64,000 nt of DNA from an uncultured bacterium (GTDB lineage Bacteria; Planctomycetota; Phycisphaerae; Phycisphaerales; SM1A02), in contig CAIXJC010000011.1 in the NCBI GenBank assembly GCA_903919715.1, forward strand, positions 1-64,000. The letters run 5' to 3'. Shown here in pieces: positions 1-12,681 of the stretch (the first letter of the stretch is position 1; the number at the start of each line of letters is the position of its first letter). Below the pieces are notes generated by a model. The model searched no databases and was not told where the DNA came from. It saw nothing but the letters and a program-made list of their open reading frames with translations. A program made the position numbers and the translations under genes.

Positions 1-50
1 ATGAACCGACATCCGCTTTCGCACTTCATCACAGACCTACAATTTGCACC

Positions 51-1172
51 ATGAATAATTTTATGCCATCACATCTAGTCCGTCTTGTCGTCATCGCAAT
101 CAGTACCGTAAGTACGCCATGCTTGGCCGTATGCGTCGAACCCGCAGCGCGATCAGAATCCAACTTGGAATTCGATACCGGAATCAAGGGTTGGCAAACC
201 GTGCTTGACGGCGTCATGGGTGGACGCTCCACAGGTCGTATCTCAGCAGGCGAAGGTGGAACGTTGCAGTTCACGGGCGAACTTTCTTTGGAAAACAATG
301 GTGGGTTTTCTCAAATTCGCACCGAAATTTCAGAGGGAATATTTGCAGATACAAAGGGATTACTTATGCGCGTCAAAGGTGATGGACGCACCTATCAGTG
401 TGATATTCGATCGTCGCGCGCGCGGGTTATGGCTGGTGGATATCAGCGCGTCTTTGAAACCAAGGCTGGCGAATGGATCGAAGTTGAGATTCCCTTCGAT
501 GAATGCACTTTTAATACCTTTGGCCAACGCGTGCGCAATGCACCACCGCTTGCTCCAGAATCTATCGAATCGGTGGGGATCACTCTTGCGGATAAAAAGC
601 CGGGAGATTTCGCTTTAGAAATTGATTGGATCCGACCGCTTGGTGCGTCGCCAAAACCAACATCAAGTCAGTCGTTGACTACCGTCGCGCAGAAGGCGGA
701 TCTCACCACGCTACTTGCGCTCGTGAAGGCCGCAGAACTCGAACTTCCAAAGGGCGCTCGAGTCACAATCTTTGCGCCAACCAACGCCGCCTTCGCCAAA
801 CTTCCAAAGAAGCAAGTTGACTTTCTCACATCCGCTGATGGCAAGTCAGTTCTTCAAACAATCTTGAAGCATCACATCGTTGGACAGTCTCTGGAAATTT
901 CAGCGGTGCTTGATAGACGGCGACTGAAAGCTCTCTCAGGGCAAACGCTGAATGTTGATCCGAACAAACTCACCATCAATGACGCACAACTTCTAGCGAC
1001 CGATGTTGCTTTCGACAGTGGCGTAGTGCAAGTGATTGACAGCGTTTTGATGCCAGAACTCCGCACTATTGATGAGCTAATTGCTGCTGATGCGCGCTGC
1101 TCCACACTACGCACCGCGCTCGATGCCGCGGGCCTTGGACCACAACTCGGCAAAGATAATCCAGGACCTTGA
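51..1172 (+). CDS. CIA30 domain plus fasciclin (FAS1) secreted protein, upstream part before in-frame TGA
   Basis: The N-terminus has a hydrophobic stretch (LVRLVVIAISTVSTPCLA) that looks like a Sec signal peptide. Residues of about 38-200 resemble a CIA30 (complex I intermediate-associated protein 30) galactose-binding-like fold, with motifs such as GWQTVLDGVMGGRS and IDWIRPL. Residues of about 205-340 form a FAS1 domain with the typical TIFAPTNAAF and HHIVGQSL boxes. A second FAS1 domain begins at about residue 345, but an in-frame TGA at 1170-1172 stops translation where FAS1 domains normally carry a hydrophobic residue (G-P-stop-T-L-L-A-P). The same frame continues with good FAS1 coding sequence to 1781. 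The likely role is extracytoplasmic adhesion or binding. The start at 51 is chosen because it precedes the signal peptide; ATG 63 is an alternative. The domain calls are from pattern recognition; function is inferred. Confidence 0.7.
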   Translation: MNNFMPSHLVRLVVIAISTVSTPCLAVCVEPAARSESNLEFDTGIKGWQTVLDGVMGGRSTGRISAGEGGTLQFTGELSLENNGGFSQIRTEISEGIFADTKGLLMRVKGDGRTYQCDIRSSRARVMAGGYQRVFETKAGEWIEVEIPFDECTFNTFGQRVRNAPPLAPESIESVGITLADKKPGDFALEIDWIRPLGASPKPTSSQSLTTVAQKADLTTLLALVKAAELELPKGARVTIFAPTNAAFAKLPKKQVDFLTSADGKSVLQTILKHHIVGQSLEISAVLDRRRLKALSGQTLNVDPNKLTINDAQLLATDVAFDSGVVQVIDSVLMPELRTIDELIAADARCSTLRTALDAAGLGPQLGKDNPGP

Positions 1173-1781
1173 ACGCTCCTTGCACCATCAAACAAAGGAT
1201 TCACGGCCGTTCCACCCGAGGCACTCACCGCACTGCTCGCGGACAAGAGCGCACTCACTGCTGTGCTCGCTGGTCATGTTCTACCCACAGCGATTCGCCG
1301 CGATGAGATGTTGTCGCAAGGATCTGCTCGCACGCTCATGGGAGATGGTGAGGTTGTATTTGCTCTCAATGGAGGTGTGATTACCGTTTCTGATGCTCGC
1401 ATTGAAGTCGCCGACATTGAGGCGGCCAACGGTGTCATTCACATCATCGATCGCGTACTGGCCACCAAAAAAACTTCGCCCGCAAAGATCGCTGCGAACA
1501 CGATGAGTCCTGCTCAACGTGCGGCCGTAATCTTTGAACTCGCAATCGAACGAGGAGTGCCTCTCTTCAACGAAGGTGACCCAGCTGCGTGCGCTGCACT
1601 TTATGAACTTGCAATCAATGCGGTGCTCTTGCTTGGCGACAACTCCACTACGAAGCAAACAGGCACAATACTGACCGACGCTCTCAAAGCAGGGAAGGCG
1701 AACGCAGACCCAAAAGAGAGCGCCTGGATTTACCGCAGAGCAATGGATCGCGCACTTCAAATGATGCAGGTTTCCCAGTAA
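1173..1781 (+). pseudogene. Continuation of the CIA30/FAS1 gene beyond the in-frame TGA (second FAS1 domain and C-terminal region)
   Basis: This stretch is in the same reading frame as the gene starting at 51 and reads TLLAPSNKGF immediately after the TGA, the classic first box of a FAS1 domain. It then carries the LAGHVLP and VIHIIDRVL boxes, so the second FAS1 domain is intact apart from the stop codon. About 100 further residues follow, with a helix-rich tail ending QMMQVSQ. Without readthrough, only a fragment starting near 1263 could be translated. The explanations are a recent nonsense mutation, a sequencing or assembly error, or programmed readthrough. TGA is a normal stop elsewhere in the window (for example the ATGA junctions), so genome-wide recoding is not supported. 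Confidence 0.65.
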
Positions 1782-1804
1782 TAACTGCGCTTTGTTCATA
1801 GTCT

Positions 1805-2971
1805 CTACAAACTGCTCACCGTCTGCAACGTTGGCTGCGGGGTAGTCGCAACCACTGCCTTCGCAACCACTGCCTCGCTCATCCAGTGACCCCACCGCGC
1901 GACTTCGACAAGGTCCCTGCCTGCCAACCAATTTGCGCGGCTTGCCAGACGCAAATCAACACCAACCGAAAGCTGTCTCGGATCGAGATGCATTCGATTC
2001 TCTGTCTCAACTCGCACGCAACGAAATTCAGTATCGCCAGGACAAATGCCAAGCGTGACAATCGCCTCCCTGCAACCATGCACTTGCACCGCCTTCAACG
2101 CAAGTTCGCGCGCAATCAACGGCCCAGCACGATCAACCTTCCAGAAATCCTTGCCGCTCATCGCACCGCCACCAATTGGAATGCGCGGGCCATAAAAATC
2201 AACCACAAGTTTCTTTCCCGAAAGTCCGTTGTCACCCATCGGCCCACCAACTTCGAAACATCCCGCACCGTTGAAATTGAACTTCACAGAATCATCGAAG
2301 TGAAACCCAGGAACTGCAAGTGCGAAATCCGCCAGCGCAATCAAGAGCGCGTTGCGTGTCGCCCGATACGCATCAACTCCACCCCACTCCAATCGGTGAT
2401 GCAGCGAAACCGACAACGAATCAAGACGCCACGATCGCGCATCCAAATCTTCAGCAAGAAACACAATCACCTTTCCATCTGGCCCACAATTCGAAGCGTT
2501 TGCTTTAGAGAATGTGTAAAGCGCCTTTGCGAGGTGACGCGCCAGCGCATGTTCGACTGGCAAATATCCAGTCCCAGGCGTGCTGCACGCATATCCAGTG
2601 ACGATCGACTGATCGTCCGCCATCGGACGAATCTCGGACTCGCCTGTCGCAAACTTTCCTCGAATGAGATCGGTGATCACATTCAACTTGTCATCTTTCG
2701 ACCAAGACCAATTTGTATACCCCGCACTTCTGTAAACGCGCTCGGCGATTGCTTCCACATTTACTTTGCTGGTGCCGTCACCTGCGATTCGACCATCAAT
2801 GAAAACTGATTTGCGGAAGAGCGCGACCTCGACCGCAACAAGCGCGCGTGGATCTTTCTTCCACGCTGCCTGCACGATGCCATCAGCAATTGCGTCAGCA
2901 AGCTTGTCCGGATGCCCAGGCAATATCCACTCAGCAGTTCGCAGAATCGAACTTGTTTCGAAGTAATTCAT
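1805..2971 (-). CDS. Divergent S-adenosylmethionine synthetase (MetK-like) at the end of a MoxR/VWA operon
   Basis: At 388 residues this matches MetK length. It keeps the family landmarks: GHPDKLADAIAD at about residues 19-30 (ATP/Mg site), ADDQSIVTGYA at about 118-128 (equivalent to the usual GAGDQG), CGPDGK at about 162-167, GDNGLSGKK at about 246-254, and GGGAMSGKDFWKVDRAG at about 267-283. These carry the His, Asp and Lys residues expected for SAM synthesis from methionine and ATP, so activity is plausible. The rest of the chain is clearly diverged from housekeeping MetK, for example GWEVRA-type core sequences are absent. Its ATG overlaps the stop of the VWA gene by four bases. Whether this is the only MetK of the cell or a paralog dedicated to the operon cannot be decided from this window. 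Family call high, dedicated role inferred. Confidence 0.8.
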   Translation of the reverse strand: MNYFETSSILRTAEWILPGHPDKLADAIADGIVQAAWKKDPRALVAVEVALFRKSVFIDGRIAGDGTSKVNVEAIAERVYRSAGYTNWSWSKDDKLNVITDLIRGKFATGESEIRPMADDQSIVTGYACSTPGTGYLPVEHALARHLAKALYTFSKANASNCGPDGKVIVFLAEDLDARSWRLDSLSVSLHHRLEWGGVDAYRATRNALLIALADFALAVPGFHFDDSVKFNFNGAGCFEVGGPMGDNGLSGKKLVVDFYGPRIPIGGGAMSGKDFWKVDRAGPLIARELALKAVQVHGCREAIVTLGICPGDTEFRCVRVETENRMHLDPRQLSVGVDLRLASRANWLAGRDLVEVARWGHWMSEAVVAKAVVATTPQPTLQTVSSL

Positions 2972-4347
2972 TGTCCACCTCCAGTAATGTCAATCCAAAC
3001 ATTGACGTATTCCGCCATTTGATTGCGACTTGCATTGGCCCCCGTCAACGCAGTTCCGATGAAAACGCTATTCAACACTGACAATTCAGCGACAGTCACA
3101 GTCCCGACGTGACCATCTGTCACGATGACCGCGCGCTGCACTTTGTTTTCTTGCATATGCCGGACGATGCAGGTCATATTGTTACCCCCAGTCGAATTCA
3201 CTTTCCCCTCTCCTAGTTCTTTCAGCGTGACATCCGAAACGATGGTCGAAAACAAATGCACCTTTGGAAAGACACAATCCGAACAATCACGAATTGCGCC
3301 ATACAGCGGAGGTATCAACTCCGTCATACTTCCCGAAACATCCATATAAACATGAACACGTTCCCCGCTTGGTGTGATTTTTCGATGTTCGATCTGATGT
3401 GAGTGCATGATCTGCCTTCCTCCAATTGCTCGAAGCACCATCCCCCTGCGATCACACCGTGGAATTGGTGACTGAATCGACATCAAACTGAGATTCCGCC
3501 GCCTGACATCCCCCGTTTTTCCAGTCACGCTGACCTTGCGAATGAGACTTCGCAAAGAGTCTCGCTTGGTCTTCGGCACTTTTACTTTGTACGTTGCAAA
3601 GAGATCATCGAGCGAGGACTTTGGAAGCATCACGCTCGAAGGCCACTTGCCAACAACCTTCTGAATGACACTCGCAAGAGCAGGCGAGACGCTTTGCAAA
3701 TTTCTCTGATCGCTGCCGTTGGCCTCGTCATCGTGACCACCAATCAAGACCGTCATGTCAACTTCAATCACCACCCCACTGTTGCAAAGCGCCTCGCGCA
3801 ATTCGCTGTAAGTACAGCCTGTTTTATAAAGTCTGCGGTGTAGCGCAGCAAGTTCAGGGAATTTGCGCAGCGCTGGCGGAGTTACAGAAAGACCTGCCGG
3901 ACTCCATCCAGATGCTGGACGCAGAAAGCAGTACAGCGGATGCTTGTCGTCGTACAAATCTCGGAACAGCGCAGTCGACGCAGGATCTGGATATGCCTGG
4001 CACAACATTGCGTTGATGACTGCATCGAAGACAAGATTGTCCAGCGGTGTGGCACGAGCAAAGAGCCGAGTATGGCCAAGCACAATGTGATGCATCTCAT
4101 GCAGAATGAGCATGGTCATTTTCTCTTTGGTGTTTGCGTGTTCCGTGCAGAAAATTGGATTGATCTTCAGCACTGAATATTCACCGCAGCTGACGCATGC
4201 AGTTGGAACACTCGTTGTCTCTTCAATTGAAATCAATCGCAAGAGTGCATCTGCACCGAAGTGCATTGCAGGAACTGAATTCATAACTTGGTCAATGAGA
4301 TCTCGGTGAATGTGCGAGTCGGTCGTGTCGTGTGAATCTGTGATCAT
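2968..4347 (-). CDS. VWA/HExxH putative metallopeptidase (DUF2201-type)
   Basis: The 459-residue protein has an N-terminal zinc-protease-like helix HEMHHIVLGH at residues 83-92, followed by FDAVINAML at about 107-114, as in the DUF2201 putative metallopeptidase domain. The C-terminal half is a VWA-like domain with a MIDAS loop DVSGSM (336-341), a TGGNNMT loop (386-392) and VTDGH (about 409-413). CVSC at 51-54 could bind metal. Proteins of this kind usually pair with a MoxR-type AAA+ ATPase, and one lies two genes upstream. The start codon at 4347 overlaps the preceding gene by four bases and its stop overlaps the MetK-like gene by four bases, so synthesis is coupled. The probable role is a metal-dependent adaptor or protease working with the ATPase; its substrate is unknown. 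Confidence 0.8.
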   Translation of the reverse strand: MITDSHDTTDSHIHRDLIDQVMNSVPAMHFGADALLRLISIEETTSVPTACVSCGEYSVLKINPIFCTEHANTKEKMTMLILHEMHHIVLGHTRLFARATPLDNLVFDAVINAMLCQAYPDPASTALFRDLYDDKHPLYCFLRPASGWSPAGLSVTPPALRKFPELAALHRRLYKTGCTYSELREALCNSGVVIEVDMTVLIGGHDDEANGSDQRNLQSVSPALASVIQKVVGKWPSSVMLPKSSLDDLFATYKVKVPKTKRDSLRSLIRKVSVTGKTGDVRRRNLSLMSIQSPIPRCDRRGMVLRAIGGRQIMHSHQIEHRKITPSGERVHVYMDVSGSMTELIPPLYGAIRDCSDCVFPKVHLFSTIVSDVTLKELGEGKVNSTGGNNMTCIVRHMQENKVQRAVIVTDGHVGTVTVAELSVLNSVFIGTALTGANASRNQMAEYVNVWIDITGGGQ

Positions 4348-4880
4348 GTTGTTTGGCCTTTCTGGGTCCAGGAATTGGGAAGCGAGAGCGTGACGCAGCG
4401 GCTTAAAACCGCAGGCGTATAAATTGGTGACTGTGATTTGATGAACGCTTTGCTTGTGCAGCGCGCAACGACTGGCAACACACGGTGTGGATTGCTGACG
4501 ACGTCAGTTGGGTCACTGGGCGACAGGAATTTGTCAAAGAGTTCTTTGGTCAGAGCGTTTGCCTCGACCGGAACGATCATCGGCAATTGTTCGACAAGCG
4601 AAAGATCCTCGCCGTTGCCGTGAAGAAATTCACAGAGCATTTCAACGTTTTTTATGTTGGAAATTCCCCAAAACTTTGCGACATGCTCCAAGGCCTGCTC
4701 GATATTGAACGATGCCGCTGCCTTACGGCCTGCTTTCGTTTCGATTATTCGTTCAGGCAGAAGTAGCAATCCAAATGCCGTGATGCTTTTTCGAGAACCG
4801 ACGCCGGTTTGCTTTATCGCAGTTCGGGGTCCTCCCATATGAAGCTGCGACCGAATTTCAGTTGGACAAAGCTTGTTCAT
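4344..4880 (-). CDS. Unknown 178-residue protein of the MoxR/VWA/MetK-like operon
   Basis: I do not recognise a family. The sequence begins MNKLCPTEIRSQLHMGGPR, has a short hydrophobic patch (ITAFGLLLLPERII) that does not look like a true membrane span, and then a mainly helical middle part with KFWGISNIKNVEMLCEFLHG. No signal peptide or catalytic motif is evident. It sits between the AAA+ ATPase and the VWA/HExxH gene with four-base ATGA overlaps on both sides. Stoichiometric coupling with those proteins is therefore likely, and it may be an adaptor or substrate-recognition subunit. That role is inference from position only. Confidence 0.7.
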   Translation of the reverse strand: MNKLCPTEIRSQLHMGGPRTAIKQTGVGSRKSITAFGLLLLPERIIETKAGRKAAASFNIEQALEHVAKFWGISNIKNVEMLCEFLHGNGEDLSLVEQLPMIVPVEANALTKELFDKFLSPSDPTDVVSNPHRVLPVVARCTSKAFIKSQSPIYTPAVLSRCVTLSLPNSWTQKGQTT

Positions 4881-6346
4881 GCTGCCCTTCGATTCTGAAG
4901 TCGTTCGTGCATCGACATGTATGAATCCGCGATGTCTACGACAACCTTTTCATCTGCACACTGCGACTGCTTCCAAAGTTTGAGAAGAAGATTGTTCAAG
5001 CCGATCGTCGAAGGCGCATCTGCAACTCTTGAACCGATGGTTTGAACGATCTGCGTGTACGCCTTATATTTCGGACCCCACGCTTCGAAGTTGCCGTCAA
5101 TTTCACAGCCAATTTCAAGTTCGCCAACAAGTATTGCCAACTGCTCCGCAATTGCAGGATTTACACGTGCGATCGCGGCATGGTCGGCGATTGCTGCGGC
5201 TAGAAGATGGCGAGCGCCCAATCCACACGACGCGAGCGCATCCGCTGTGTATGCAGAGAGTTCATATCCAGGGAGCGAATCAATTTCGAGTGCTAGAAAA
5301 ATTCGATTGATTGGGTCAGTCTCTTGACAGAGCAGTCGGCGCGGATCTGCGCGCTCGAGGCGCAGAGATTCGAAAATTTTTCGGTGCGCCAATTGAAGTT
5401 TTCCTTCGTCAATGGTGATGCCTCGAGCGCGATCAGAAATAGTATTTTTCAGCGCAATCCAAGCGCTTTCGTCGATGTTGAACTTTCCTTCCAGTGTCCA
5501 CCGAGCGGCATGCACTGCAAAGATCGCTTCATTGAGCATCACCGCACGACGCCCCGAAAGTTGAATCTTGACTTCCGGCAATACCTTGGAAATCAAGTGG
5601 ACATATTCGTTCATCATTTCGCCATATGCGCCCTTCACCTGCGCGAGGCGCTGCCGCGTCGTATTGACAAGCGCCTGCACGGATTGCTTGACCGCAGGAG
5701 TAAGAACAAAAGCTTGATTCTGGACGAGCGCAATTCGATCATCTGGCGAGAAATTCACCCAGTTTGGCATTTCAACCACAAATGGGAAACGATCCGCAAG
5801 CGCAGCATCGAGTGCTTCACTGCCGAGATATTCCGTTTCGTCCCCACTGCTCGAATCACTTGGCGGCGGATTCATCGCAGCCCAACGGAATTTGAGATTT
5901 TTAATCGGCATCCCTTGAATACATTTTTCGTGAATGATTGGGAAAAGCCTGTTCTGCATATCTGGGCGGCAACGAGAAATCTCGTCCAAGAAAACCGCTT
6001 CTGCCGGCCAGATGCTTGCCGGAGTTTCAACAAACTTCAGCGTGCCATCTGCGTCAGGCAGTGGATAGCCAACGAGGTCGTCGTAATTCAGCAGGCTTGC
6101 GTTGTAGTGACGAAACTTCAGATCGAGCGCTTCTGCGACACGATTGAGCAGCAGACTTTTCGCAGTGCCATGTGCACCGATGAGCAGCAGCGGAGCTTCG
6201 GTTGCAAGCGCTGCGAGAAGGACTGCGTCGATTCGATCTGAACCGATAATGCCGAGTTGCCGCAGAAAACGCGTGGGAATAATCGCGGGTGCGTTTTCTG
6301 GATTTGATGCTGGAACTGCTGAATTTGTAGATGTTTCTTGCGCCAT
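4877..6346 (-). CDS. MoxR/RavA-like AAA+ ATPase
   Basis: From the chosen start the protein is 489 residues: Walker A GAHGTAKS at 57-64, Walker B AVFLDEIS at 117-124, a sensor-1-like region AAMNPPP near 157-163, and a long helical C-terminal part. This is the layout of MoxR/RavA-family ATPases, which remodel or load partners together with VWA proteins. The open frame extends upstream to 6664. The start at 6346 (MAQETSTN) is preferred because a GGAG sits nine bases upstream and the upstream reading is low-complexity leader sequence containing several perfect hairpins. The stop overlaps the next gene as ATGA. It is the first gene of a four-gene coupled operon. Cytoplasmic. Family call firm, target unknown. 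Confidence 0.82.
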   Translation of the reverse strand: MAQETSTNSAVPASNPENAPAIIPTRFLRQLGIIGSDRIDAVLLAALATEAPLLLIGAHGTAKSLLLNRVAEALDLKFRHYNASLLNYDDLVGYPLPDADGTLKFVETPASIWPAEAVFLDEISRCRPDMQNRLFPIIHEKCIQGMPIKNLKFRWAAMNPPPSDSSSGDETEYLGSEALDAALADRFPFVVEMPNWVNFSPDDRIALVQNQAFVLTPAVKQSVQALVNTTRQRLAQVKGAYGEMMNEYVHLISKVLPEVKIQLSGRRAVMLNEAIFAVHAARWTLEGKFNIDESAWIALKNTISDRARGITIDEGKLQLAHRKIFESLRLERADPRRLLCQETDPINRIFLALEIDSLPGYELSAYTADALASCGLGARHLLAAAIADHAAIARVNPAIAEQLAILVGELEIGCEIDGNFEAWGPKYKAYTQIVQTIGSRVADAPSTIGLNNLLLKLWKQSQCADEKVVVDIADSYMSMHERLQNRRAA

Positions 6347-6681
6347 GACAGACTCCAATGGCAACAAGAGCTCGGCTGCGAAAACACAAATTGAAATCAA
6401 AGCGCACGAAAAATCGTGGGCGATGAAATCAAAAAGTGCAGTTCGGAAGGGTGCGCCGAACACGATGTTCGAGCGCTTTGCGTCAACGCGATCCTTTGGG
6501 AAAAGGCTCGCGCGGCCGCATCGATCCCCCTTCGGGGCTGCCTCGGCACCGTTCGACTGCGTATCGCAGTTCGTCGGTTGCCGTTCAGACAAGAGGCTGT
6601 CTGAAACTCTTGATGCTGGGAGAAGTATACGACACAATTTCAAATATGCAAACGAATCAAACAATTTGCAATTGATTGTGA
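6347..6681 (-). promoter_or_regulatory. Promoter and structured leader of the MoxR/VWA/MetK-like operon
   Basis: This 335-base gap has no convincing gene. On the minus strand a promoter is readable: -35 TTTGCA (6647-6652), a 17-base spacer, -10 TATACT (6624-6629), which would start transcription near 6617. The resulting leader of about 270 nt contains three hairpins: TTCAGACA-6-TGTCTGAA (6584-6605), ACTGCG-3-CGCAGT (6556-6570), and a short CCCC/GGGG hairpin near 6522-6533. An SD-like GGAG lies just before the ATG at 6346. The promoter assignment is by eye; the hairpin arms are exact matches. The function of the leader is unknown. Confidence 0.45.
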
Positions 6682-8991
6682 TTAATCCACCGACACTGTC
6701 AGTTCGCGGGGATCATCTGGCGCTGATCGAGGCCTGCCAAAGTAATACCCCTGGAAATAGCAGCACCCTTTCTCAACGAGGCTTTCCCATACGTCGCGTG
6801 ACTCAATCCCCTCCGCGATCACCCGCAAGTTGAGCGACTCGCACATGGAGAGGATCGCGCGCACAATCGCCGCGTCATGGCGGTCAGTCAGGATGCGCTG
6901 CACATAACTTTGGTCGATTTTCACTTCGTTTACTGGAAGTCTGCGCAGATATGTCAGCGAGCTATATCCAGCGCCGAAGTCGTCGAGCGAAAATTCGATG
7001 TCATGCGCGCGAAGTTGGTGCATCCGCTCTGCAGCGAACTCCAGTTCTGTCACGACAGTCGCTTCAGTGATTTCAAGGCGAATACTGCGCCCATCAGTGC
7101 CAGTGCGACGAAGCGTGTCGAGCACGCGAGCTGGGAAATCTGGGTGCATAAACTCGGCCGAACTGAGATTCACAGCGATTCGGAATCCCTTTGGCAATCG
7201 GTCTCGCCACTTGCCGATCTGCATGCACGCGGACTCAAGACTCCATCGCCCTATTTCGTGGATGAATCCAGACTCCTCTGCGACTGGGATGAACTCGCTC
7301 GGGCCGCACGCTGGATCTTGGCCGTTCCAGCGCATGAGTGCCTCTGCACCAACAAGTCGCCCATCACGATCTACTTGCGCCTGATAGTTGACGGAGAGTT
7401 CGGCATGCTTGAACCCAAGGCGCAAACGCGATTCAAGCGCAGAACGTCGGTCGACCTTCTGCTGCATCTCTGGGTGGAAAATACGGACCATGTTTCGGCC
7501 TGCATCTTTGGCAGAATAAAGCGCTACATCTGCAGCCTTCAGAAGCGACTCAGCACTGTCAACTGGATCAACGCTAGCGGCGACGCCGATGCTCACGCTG
7601 TGGTGCGTCACACCGACGTCGATGCTGTACGACTCGTCGAGCGCGACAAGCAACTTGGTTGCAGTACGTTCGGCTTTGGCGAGCGCTGCGGCTGAATCGC
7701 TTCCGAGCTGTTCGAGAAGCACGACGAACTCATCGCCACCGAGGCGAGCAACCGTGTCGTATGGACGTACCAAGTCGCGCAGACGCTTGCCGACAGCGCG
7801 AAGAAGTTGATCGCCGGCAGCGTGACCATGAGTATCGTTGAGGCGCTTGAAACGATCGACGTCGAGCATGAGAACGGCAGCCATCTGTCCAGTGCGTTCG
7901 CGGATGTGTAGCGAATGTTGCAATCGATCTAGAAGAAGCCGACGATTCGGCAGGTCAGTCAACGGATCGAAATACGCCAACCGATGAATATCCGCCTCAT
8001 AGCGGCGCCGTTCTGTGAGATCCTGTACCGATCCTGCGAATCGCACTGCATTCCCCTGCGAATCACGAAGCACCGTGCCGCGAACAAGCACAGGAACCCA
8101 ACTTGCGTCTGCGCGCCGAAGGCTGACCTCCGCTTCGACGCTCGTGCGCCCACTTGCAAAGGCGTTGTCGAGCAACATTCCAAACCTTGCACCGTCCTTT
8201 GGATGAACGTGATCCTTCCAGAAGCCATCTTGCGTCCGTGCTGGCTGATCGGGCTCACCCAACAACTGCAGCCAGCGCGCAGATAAATAGCAGCGATTGG
8301 TGACCATGTCCCAGTCCCACCAACCATCGATCGTCCCCTTCATGACAAGTTCGAGTTGCTCCTGCGACCGCCGCAGTTCTTCAAGTTGGTGCTCGATCAA
8401 GCGGCGATCAACCCCGTGATCAATGTGTGCAGCGCACTTCTCCGCAAAGACAGTCAGCATCTCAAGAGTCTCATCGGATACTGGCTCGCTCATGCCTGCG
8501 ACCGCAGGAGAATCAGCGGCCAACACGATCGCCGTGGTGCTGCCATCGCGACCAACGCACCTGCATGCGATTGGTGTGATAAGAGGAACACCCACAAGAA
8601 TGTCGCTGATGTCCGCGCCAAGTCGCATTGCGCGAACCTTGCTACCTGTCCCAATCTTCTGGGCGATTGCGAGGCCCGCCTGCTCCCAGTGCGCGTGCGG
8701 GACGTTCACACCGAAGACTGCAAATGATGATTCCATCGCTTTGTCATACGGAGGTAAAACCCAAACGGCGCCCACTGCGATGTCCAGCACATCGACAATC
8801 GCCTCTGCGAAAGCCTGCGCCATCGTTTGCTCCTTCAGCGCACCGAGAAGGTGATTTGAAAACCGATTCAGTCGGATGAGCTGCAACACCTGTCGGTCAA
8901 GGCGCGCCTTAATTGAAATCAGTTGCTGCTGCAGAAGATTGTGCGATGCAGCACTAGCCGAAGGGTTGTTGGGCGTCTGCCCAGAGTTCAT
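6682..8991 (-). CDS. GAF-PAS-GGDEF-EAL cyclic-di-GMP turnover protein
   Basis: The 769-residue protein is read from the ATG at 8991, which overlaps the FIST gene stop as ATGA; an upstream extension to 9204 would lie inside the FIST gene. Order of parts: N-terminal coiled-coil-like helix (about 15-45), GAF-like region (about 45-190), a PAS/PAC fold containing GWWDWDM (about 210-330), GGDEF domain with intact GGDEF (418-422) and an RPYD inhibitory I-site five residues before it, then an EAL domain with EALMRW (from 550), a DDFGAGYSSL loop, KID and AEGIE motifs. All residues needed for both diguanylate cyclase and phosphodiesterase activity appear present. It is probably cytosolic, with no membrane span. 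The coupled FIST protein suggests that it supplies the sensory input. Confidence 0.9.
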   Translation of the reverse strand: MNSGQTPNNPSASAASHNLLQQQLISIKARLDRQVLQLIRLNRFSNHLLGALKEQTMAQAFAEAIVDVLDIAVGAVWVLPPYDKAMESSFAVFGVNVPHAHWEQAGLAIAQKIGTGSKVRAMRLGADISDILVGVPLITPIACRCVGRDGSTTAIVLAADSPAVAGMSEPVSDETLEMLTVFAEKCAAHIDHGVDRRLIEHQLEELRRSQEQLELVMKGTIDGWWDWDMVTNRCYLSARWLQLLGEPDQPARTQDGFWKDHVHPKDGARFGMLLDNAFASGRTSVEAEVSLRRADASWVPVLVRGTVLRDSQGNAVRFAGSVQDLTERRRYEADIHRLAYFDPLTDLPNRRLLLDRLQHSLHIRERTGQMAAVLMLDVDRFKRLNDTHGHAAGDQLLRAVGKRLRDLVRPYDTVARLGGDEFVVLLEQLGSDSAAALAKAERTATKLLVALDESYSIDVGVTHHSVSIGVAASVDPVDSAESLLKAADVALYSAKDAGRNMVRIFHPEMQQKVDRRSALESRLRLGFKHAELSVNYQAQVDRDGRLVGAEALMRWNGQDPACGPSEFIPVAEESGFIHEIGRWSLESACMQIGKWRDRLPKGFRIAVNLSSAEFMHPDFPARVLDTLRRTGTDGRSIRLEITEATVVTELEFAAERMHQLRAHDIEFSLDDFGAGYSSLTYLRRLPVNEVKIDQSYVQRILTDRHDAAIVRAILSMCESLNLRVIAEGIESRDVWESLVEKGCCYFQGYYFGRPRSAPDDPRELTVSVD

Positions 8992-10196
8992 GCGTCGACC
9001 TGACCAGGTCTTCGATAAATCGCCGCAAGAGCTGTGGTGTAGTTGTGATAGGCGTTTCGACCTCCGAGTCGTGCGTACTCGCCGAATCCATACATGCCAA
9101 ACCAGGGCGGAACCGAACCGCCATTCGCCAAGGGCTGCTGCATGCGGTGCACCAACTCCTCCTTCATGACGCGGTTGAACAACCGTCGACCACGTGCGAG
9201 GCAATCCGCTTGAAAGACCGCGATCGGATGCTGCGCAGGATGGCGAGCCAGCATCGCACGCATCATGCGATCCATGTCGTCGAAGATGCGAACCTCGTCG
9301 CGCACGGTGAGCCAGAGGTTGGTGCCCGCAACTGCGTCGGTGGCGTACACCAGTTGTCCGTCATCGGTGTGATGAGTCACAACGCGCAAGATGTGGTCAT
9401 TGCCATACTCCTTCGCAAGGGTCGGTGATAGACGCTCCGCAAGCGCGCCGATGGGAATCGTGTCGCCTTCACTTGCGCTATCGGCAAGACCAAGTCGGCG
9501 CAGAAACTCCGGCCATGCTGGCCGACCATCGAGTTCGGCGATTTGATTTTCATGTGCGCGCGTCACCTTGAGCGGATCGCCGCTTGCAACAAATCCATGG
9601 GTCGCCTGCGTGTCAACCTCGAGCGTCGGGTCCCAAATTCCAACTGCGAATGCACCGTGTTGTTGCTTCTTCCCATCGATCGCTTGGAATGTTGCGATCC
9701 CCTGCATCTGGTCGGAACTCGTCGCGCCGAAGATGACAACATCTGGACCAAGTACGGATTCGACTCCAGCGATGAGCTGATCATTCGCAATATCGATTCC
9801 CGATGCAAGCAAATAGATCATGCGAACGGGCTTGGGTGACTTTTGCAAATCACGAGCCAACTCGGCGCCCTTGGCGAACGAAGAATTCCCGTACAGACCA
9901 TCGACATGCGAGACGGTGAATCCCTCGCCAGTGATTCCCATGATGGCGATGTCGTGAATGGATTCGCCTGGACCCTCACGTCCGACAACACCTGCGCAAG
10001 AAGCCGCCAAGACGCGCGCTTTCGGGCACTGCGCACTGATAGCGCGAGAGAGAACCGCCACGTCATGCCCCACGCCAGCGTTGACCAACACTAAGTCGCA
10101 GGTTGGTGTTGTGGTTGCATAGGCCAACTCAAGCGCCTCTTGGATGGCGCGTTGGGGATTCACGGAACGGACATTGGCTGATCGAAAATCGAGCAT
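8988..10196 (-). CDS. FIST-domain sensory protein
   Basis: The 402-residue protein matches the FIST N and FIST C domain layout. The N-terminal part contains LVLVNAGVGHD, ASCAGVVG and GATSSDQMQG; the C-terminal part contains VRDEVRIFDDMDR and the ending GMYGFGEYARLGG, where FIST proteins typically have a FSC/GE(I/F)-type motif. FIST domains are thought to bind small molecules, possibly amino acids, in signalling proteins. A clear AAAGGAG six bases before the ATG supports the start at 10196. The stop overlaps the start of the GGDEF-EAL gene, which supports a two-component sensory unit controlling c-di-GMP. The ligand is unknown. Confidence 0.85.
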   Translation of the reverse strand: MLDFRSANVRSVNPQRAIQEALELAYATTTPTCDLVLVNAGVGHDVAVLSRAISAQCPKARVLAASCAGVVGREGPGESIHDIAIMGITGEGFTVSHVDGLYGNSSFAKGAELARDLQKSPKPVRMIYLLASGIDIANDQLIAGVESVLGPDVVIFGATSSDQMQGIATFQAIDGKKQQHGAFAVGIWDPTLEVDTQATHGFVASGDPLKVTRAHENQIAELDGRPAWPEFLRRLGLADSASEGDTIPIGALAERLSPTLAKEYGNDHILRVVTHHTDDGQLVYATDAVAGTNLWLTVRDEVRIFDDMDRMMRAMLARHPAQHPIAVFQADCLARGRRLFNRVMKEELVHRMQQPLANGGSVPPWFGMYGFGEYARLGGRNAYHNYTTALAAIYRRPGQVDA

Positions 10197-10300
10197 GGGA
10201 TGCTCCTTTGATTATGCGTGCGGGACGAGGCGAGTGAAGGGTAACAAACCGACGCAGCGTAAGTCCAATTGTGTGATGGTCATTGACCACCACCACCGAA

Positions 10301-12681
<2,381 letters not shown>

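Follow-up and report, generated by a model that had tools for sequence, protein, structure and literature searches.

Why should an S-adenosylmethionine (SAM) synthetase-like gene lie in one operon with a MoxR-class ATPase? The question is raised by positions 1805 to 6346 of a 64,000-nucleotide stretch of DNA (contig CAIXJC010000011.1, assembly GCA_903919715.1; hereafter the window) from an uncultured planctomycete bacterium of the SM1A02 lineage, where genes for a MoxR ATPase, a small protein, a VWA/HExxH protein and a MetK-like protein follow each other in this order. Comparison with relatives shows that the four genes are one conserved system, and the sequence of its MetK-like enzyme makes ordinary SAM synthesis from free methionine improbable. 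The system is a MoxR/VWA pair of known kind plus an altered MetK and a small protein, a combination undescribed in the open-access literature searched.

All four genes are on the minus strand. The first (4877..6346) encodes a 489-residue MoxR-class AAA+ ATPase, assigned by Pfam matches to AAA_5 and bpMoxR and by its motifs (Walker A GAHGTAKS, Walker B VFLDEI, sensor 1 AAMNP, arginine finger ALADRF, sensor 2 LSGRR). It is followed by a protein of 178 residues (4344..4880) with an N-terminal LHMGGP and a C-terminal ARCTSKAFIK motif, and by a 459-residue protein (2968..4347) in which a zincin-like HExxHxxLGHTR region (H83, E84, H87, H92, R94) is fused to a VWA domain carrying the metal ion-dependent adhesion site (MIDAS) motif DVSGS and TDG. 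The last gene (1805..2971) encodes the 388-residue MetK-like protein, which has three methionine adenosyltransferase (MAT) domains and the main catalytic residues, an arginine (Arg61) in place of Glu55, and no counterpart of Gln98. ATGA overlaps are present at all three junctions, in agreement with the layout given in an earlier note on this DNA. The overlaps suggest translational coupling of the four genes; the earlier note took them to fix the ratio of the four proteins, which is an over-reading, as ATGA overlaps do not show protein ratio. An Rfam search of window positions 1-12500 gave no match at the gathering score.

To follow the operon in relatives, the VWA/HExxH protein was used as the query against 181 genomes of the window's family and 392 genomes of the phylum, matching loci were fetched, and the four window proteins were compared with these loci by tblastn (loci are labelled L and genomes G below). 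With a sensitive VWA profile the module was found at 27 loci in 25 of the 181 family genomes; G004 and G021 have two loci each, and in G010 a pair of halves at contig edges was taken as a single locus. Short weak VWA matches in G144 (E 3.5e-4) and on contig C177 of G112 (E 6.3e-5) were dropped. The MetK-like gene follows the VWA gene in all 26 family loci whose contig permits the check, the 27th (G099) ending inside the VWA gene, and outside the family MoxR, VWA and MetK-like genes occur in order at 4/4 loci from three other planctomycete families (G323, G218, G405 and G252). Order and strand are the same wherever the contig is long enough. Thus the MetK-like gene adjoins the VWA gene at every checkable locus, which rules out that it is rarely found near MoxR/VWA genes and bears out the view of the four genes as one system. 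In G117, G118 and G123 the MetK-like gene is a fragment truncated by a contig end, with no VWA gene beside it, and has no bearing on the linkage either way. Spacing in the relatives, with the window left out, starts set by script and near-identical loci included, was exactly -4 nt at 6 of 19 MoxR-small protein junctions (all at most 37 nt), 15 of 22 small protein-VWA junctions and 16 of 29 VWA-MetK junctions (all within 63 nt). Module-type MetK was found among the 392 phylum genomes in G323, G218, G405, G252, G000 and G097, and a class-wide draw gave matches in 6 of 397 genomes, all from the window's family; judged by these counts, the module occurs mainly in one family and seldom outside it.

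The MetK-like protein passes the Pfam cut-offs for the N, M and C domains of S-AdoMet_synt, and scores 156.8 bits against the NCBIfam metK equivalog, short of the cut-off of 309.4. An ordinary MetK is encoded on contig C20 of the same genome, which rules out the module copy as the genome's only MetK, one of the conditions under which the earlier note would have given up its system reading. At least one further MetK match was found in 21 of the 24 family genomes with a module MetK (matches not each inspected). In hidden Markov model searches of the 181 and 392 genomes, uncut module MetKs scored 427-636 bits and the next matches at most 200.6 bits among the matches listed. In a quick tree with 31 ordinary MetKs, the module MetKs form one branch (SH-aLRT branch support 100).

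Residues were compared by aligning 27 module MetKs jointly with 30 ordinary planctomycete ones, the best-scoring of many more, and with E. coli MetK. The module enzyme shares the three-domain architecture and the main ATP/triphosphate residues of MetK: H14, D16, D118, D163, K165, D238, K245, K265 and D271 are kept in all 27 members, E42 in 26, and K17, K269 and F230 in 25 each. It differs in a diverged C-terminus and at three positions, all retained in 30/30 ordinary planctomycete MetKs: Glu55 is arginine and Arg244 is lysine in 27/27 module MetKs, and Gln98 has no aligned residue in any of them. Independently of the alignment, the stretch between the GY and DQ motifs contains no Gln in 23 of the 27, and in the other four a Gln at scattered places. 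The 27 sequences fall into 20 clusters at 85% identity, and residues newly invariant among them include Arg53, Arg61 and Glu111. In the parts of the MetK literature consulted, Glu55 is described as helping to bind the methionine amino group, and Gln98 together with Lys269 its carboxyl group (PMC3853416, PMC1282579). Because Glu55 and Gln98 are gone while the ATP/triphosphate residues are mostly kept, we infer that this family has retained its ATP chemistry and has lost or rebuilt its recognition of free methionine; the loss of two methionine-holding residues is also what makes the usual synthesis of SAM improbable. The suggestion in the earlier note that the module uses SAM as signal or modifier finds no support in a family without these two residues. 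If its methionine site is indeed rebuilt, this MetK branch would extend the known range of the MetK fold, and would be a candidate for a new adenosylation reaction or signal.

Module-type MetK was also sought on plasmids, phages and viral contigs. Plasmids gave no match to the VWA protein and 166 records matching the MetK-like protein, with 30-32% identity among the 20 listed; phages gave 117 records, with 27-35% identity among the 20 listed. From viral contigs 80 of 111 MetK relatives were retained, at no more than 38% identity. Glu was present at the place of Glu55 in 74/74 readable sequences (6 of the 80 were unreadable), and the Gln98-stretch pattern matched in 72 of the 74, the remaining two showing Gln by eye, so that no module-type MetK was present among the 74 readable viral-contig MetKs. 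One viral contig, L146, has phage-like genes and, next to them at 3264-5000, genes for MoxR, a small protein with LNNMS and a broken VWA protein. Close to the break in the VWA gene the GC content goes up from about 0.56 to 0.70; because this jump may mean a chimera or an insertion, L146 was left out as evidence of host range.

The motifs of the other two large proteins are intact. The window MoxR matches AAA_5 (3.9e-11) and scores 28 bits against bpMoxR, cut-off 27, a Pfam family described as coming from MoxR-vWA-beta-propeller systems. Walker A and B, sensor 1, arginine finger and sensor 2 are intact and recur in the relatives, with K63, D121, E122, N159, R186, R266 and R267 as invariant columns; the Walker B pattern missed some variants, and some MoxR frames are incomplete. 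Invariant over 27 rows of the VWA protein are H83, E84, H87, H92, R94 and the MIDAS residues D336, S338 and S340 of DVSGS. Its DUF2201_N match lies below the cut-off (E 0.017; 15.2 vs 23.2 bits); at E up to 0.1, DUF2201_N is found in 27/27 members, with L073 over and L071 under the cut-off, and VWA_CoxE in 24/27, the window protein's matches not including it. No match to propeller families and no swapped effector domain was seen among the 27 members. In a structure model of the window protein (mean predicted local distance difference test score 71, predicted template-modelling score 0.49) the VWA strands reach the C-terminus, and a PDB search with the model gave 9qhe_G, which belongs to the NorQD complex, as best hit (E 1.7e-3), with chains of VWA and I domains ranking next.

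The small protein, called unknown in the earlier note, has no Pfam match in the window, its 26 relatives share none, and the best match of the window protein in a fold search was at E 2.5, which is no match. It was found by tblastn at most loci, often as the C-terminal part only. At L057, L061, L062 and L070-L073 the small protein is an open reading frame (ORF) in the gap between the MoxR and VWA genes; six of these seven (not L070) were aligned, with 17-22% identity to the window protein, and homology is less sure in these gap ORFs, above all in L071-L073.

Several MoxR/VWA systems invite comparison. CbbQ-CbbO and RavA-ViaA are similar pairs. MoxR and zincin-VWA genes lie in the same stretch without MetK in other planctomycetes (G426, G198, G314, G394 and G344), and the stretches fetched gave no MetK-like or small-protein match by tblastn. 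In seven VWA ORFs examined from six genomes without the MetK-like gene in the stretch fetched the signature is HExxHxxxGD, whereas the module has HExxHxxLGHTR; the VWA protein of one MetK-less set, L081, passes DUF2201_N. Seven phylum genomes have a distant VWA match only and no MetK-like match in the stretch fetched, the VWA protein of G231 lying outside the signature comparison. The earlier note's known pairing of MoxR with a DUF2201-type VWA stands in so far as MoxR plus a zincin-VWA protein exists without MetK in other planctomycetes; no paper in the open-access library searched joins 'DUF2201' and 'MoxR'. The note did not recognise the addition of a MetK-like and a small protein to such a pair, and we likewise found no description of a MoxR/VWA module with a MetK-like gene in the open PubMed Central literature searched, which holds no preprints and few subscription papers.

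The module resembles NorQ-NorD in that an intact MoxR AAA+ protein adjoins a VWA protein with intact MIDAS whose model has a NorQD chain as its top match, and differs in the zincin-like region of the VWA protein and in the two further proteins of the operon. NorQ is described as remodelling the NorD linker and so enabling metal insertion (PMC13036017). Kaur et al. 2020 (PMC7159879), as far as its text was covered, sets out four classes of MoxR-vWA ternary conflict systems, VMAP, iSTAND, FtsH and beta-propeller, the last strictly with the propeller C-terminal to the vWA domain. The module shares with these systems the MoxR and vWA core, further coupled components and a MoxR just over the bpMoxR cut-off; it differs from the beta-propeller class, as described in the passages covered, in that its 27 VWA members have no propeller match and the modelled VWA strands run to the C-terminus. 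The comparison with the VMAP, iSTAND and FtsH classes consisted of the Pfam searches, which gave no match for the window's small protein and none shared by its 26 relatives, the authors' VMAP profiles standing outside it. The main text of PMC7159879 returned no instance of 'SAM synth', 'AdoMet', 'MetK' or 'DUF2201', and seven of 'adenosyl', the passage seen concerning radical SAM.

The four genes appear to be under constraint, and the three large proteins diverge together. The ratio of nonsynonymous to synonymous substitution (dN/dS) was below 1 in 12/12 comparisons with three relatives (range 0.05-0.65; dS near saturation, 2.3-2.5, in the third), the small protein being the least constrained, at 0.59 and 0.65 in the comparisons with the two nearest relatives. 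Identity matrices of the MoxR, VWA and MetK-like proteins over 23 loci agree (Mantel rho 0.78, 0.79 and 0.82, with 0/999 permutations as high), values that are inflated by the close relatives included. The ten rows of the window's genus, g1, as a single clade on the MetK-like tree were rejected (approximately unbiased test, p-AU 1.8e-46, long branches flagged). Because the three large proteins co-diverge and g1 is not one clade, the module probably moves between planctomycetes as a unit; these trees and matrices are most simply read as horizontal spread of the module as a whole, with old duplication followed by loss as the alternative.

The best explanation of the locus, to which we give a probability of roughly one half, is a self-contained, exchanged module in which a NorQ-NorD-type remodelling pair serves a neofunctionalised MetK that acts on something other than free methionine. 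The MoxR ring and the VWA/zincin-like protein would form the remodelling pair. The small protein would be its adaptor or client, and the MetK-like enzyme would be either a client too or the module's catalytic output. By analogy with NorQ-NorD, the pair may remodel the MetK-like or the small protein, and in the proposed scheme it would load, activate or remodel the MetK-like enzyme. This enzyme would attack ATP at C5' and release triphosphate, using an acceptor other than free L-methionine, and the module would be an accessory trait in stress or conflict rather than part of core metabolism. MoxR/VWA pairs are widespread, and to our knowledge the target has been identified for few of them; in this module the motor is accompanied by an enzyme that is a candidate target, which makes the question of the target directly testable.

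Several points weigh against this explanation. The methionine-site argument rests on sequence alignment, and the methionine-holding residues Asp238 (27/27) and Lys269 (25/27) are retained, so that weak or altered use of methionine is possible. No second MetK is among the matches listed for G024, G111 and G124 (83, 83 and 55% complete), and long branches were flagged in the MetK trees. The match to 9qhe_G lies above 1e-3, with a TM-score of 0.25 over a model of middling confidence, and none of the matches falls below 1e-3. The Mantel values are inflated as described, the module is rare outside the family, to which all 6 matching genomes of the 397 in the class belong, and the target of the MoxR/VWA pair could be the small protein or a host target instead of the MetK-like protein.

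A defence role is possible, on the unlikely side of even: in an anti-phage or conflict system, the MoxR, VWA and small proteins would sense infection and the MetK-like protein would be the effector, for example through ATP consumption or an adenosylated signal that it makes. The module's patchy distribution, its probable spread as a unit and its occurrence in up to two copies per genome are consistent with such a role, as are some neighbours. A type IV restriction enzyme gene lies 838 and 1394 nt upstream of MoxR on the same strand in G004 and G010; in both cases a single opposite-strand ORF intervenes. Among 27 module genomes (all 29 except G107 and G124), only three genes match this family across more than 600 of its 945 positions, two of them beside the module and the third, in G015, on another contig and not placeable relative to the module. 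PADLOC matches below 1e-20 were obtained for 5 of 17 neighbours: the type IV restriction enzymes (L056, L085), a HEC-01A-like ATPase (L073) and a Fic protein (L066), which lie 9 and 54 nt downstream respectively, and a PDC-S36-like gene adjoining L061. Weaker matches came from two proteins resembling Cas9-HNH (L085, L054), from a methyltransferase in L071 and from an FAD oxidoreductase in L057. Control ORFs, ten chosen from 20 as likely real genes, gave 0/10 below 1e-20 and one match to a Cas10 model at 4.6e-6. However, this contrast is biased because the 17 neighbours were hand-picked, several for their defence-like look (L081's own VWA was left out), and the restriction enzymes were counted after the neighbours had been seen, so that this neighbourhood is an after-the-fact lead. 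Other neighbours look ordinary (a nitric oxide synthase domain, transporters, an FAD oxidoreductase, YCII and DUF192), and the VWA protein has no swapped effector domain. PADLOC gave two weak AAA matches for the window MoxR (E 0.013 and 0.02) and none for the other three window proteins.

Among these neighbours, an HNH_4 protein with weak resemblance to Cas9-HNH is encoded just upstream of MoxR in L085 (4993-6048, minus strand), where it lies between MoxR and the type IV restriction enzyme, and in L054 (11888-12895, plus strand). The protein with the nitric oxide synthase oxygenase domain is encoded about 1 kb upstream of the module in L062 (13066-14313, minus strand; genome G073).

A rather doubtful alternative is a maturase for cofactor or metal insertion, in which the MoxR/VWA pair would act as NorQD does on nitric oxide reductase and mature the MetK-like protein or another metalloenzyme for an adenosylating step in some unknown biosynthesis. 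That NorQD is reported to serve an enzyme target (PMC13036017, PMC9976466) favours it, while the limited sample of neighbours scanned held no recurring biosynthetic gene. Accessory SAM supply, by a fast-evolving but ordinary methionine adenosyltransferase raising local SAM for a MoxR/VWA stress module, is improbable, since the three MAT domains, the main catalytic His, Asp and Lys (27/27), Asp238 (27/27) and Lys269 (25/27) have to be set against Glu55>Arg and the missing Gln98 in 27/27 members across 20 clusters, 156.8 bits against the metK cut-off of 309.4, and the ordinary MetK already present in the genome.

Within the preferred explanation, of a remodelling pair serving an altered MetK, one special form appears very unlikely, namely that the enzyme adenosylates a protein-embedded methionine, the motif Met of the small partner presented by MoxR/VWA. 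The idea arises because the lost residues hold the amino and carboxyl groups, which are absent as free ends inside a peptide; if true, peptidyl S-adenosylmethionine would be a new post-translational modification. The relatives' N-terminal motif is L[HNQA]NMxxRP, and the window version LHMGGP. Counted by eye, with near-copies and L146 included, the motif Met (LxNM-type) is present in 27 of 30 readable N-termini; the motif pattern matched the wrong place in L018, L063 and L064. Against this idea, L062 has Leu at the position of the motif Met, and L070 and L071 lack the motif, their initiator Met lying at about that place.

Upstream of the operon, window positions 6682-10196 (minus strand) encode a GGDEF/EAL protein and a FIST-domain protein between a KatG-like peroxidase gene and MoxR. 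In a comparison of flanking genes, of 19 genomes in the genus only the one from which the window comes was found to have the FIST gene, and in L003 and L005 a similar KatG-like gene lies directly upstream of MoxR (369 and 366 nt). On the other side, the CIA30/fasciclin gene at 51-1781 (plus strand) stops while its fasciclin match continues in the same frame beyond the stop; its counterpart in G007 is a single open frame of 587 residues.

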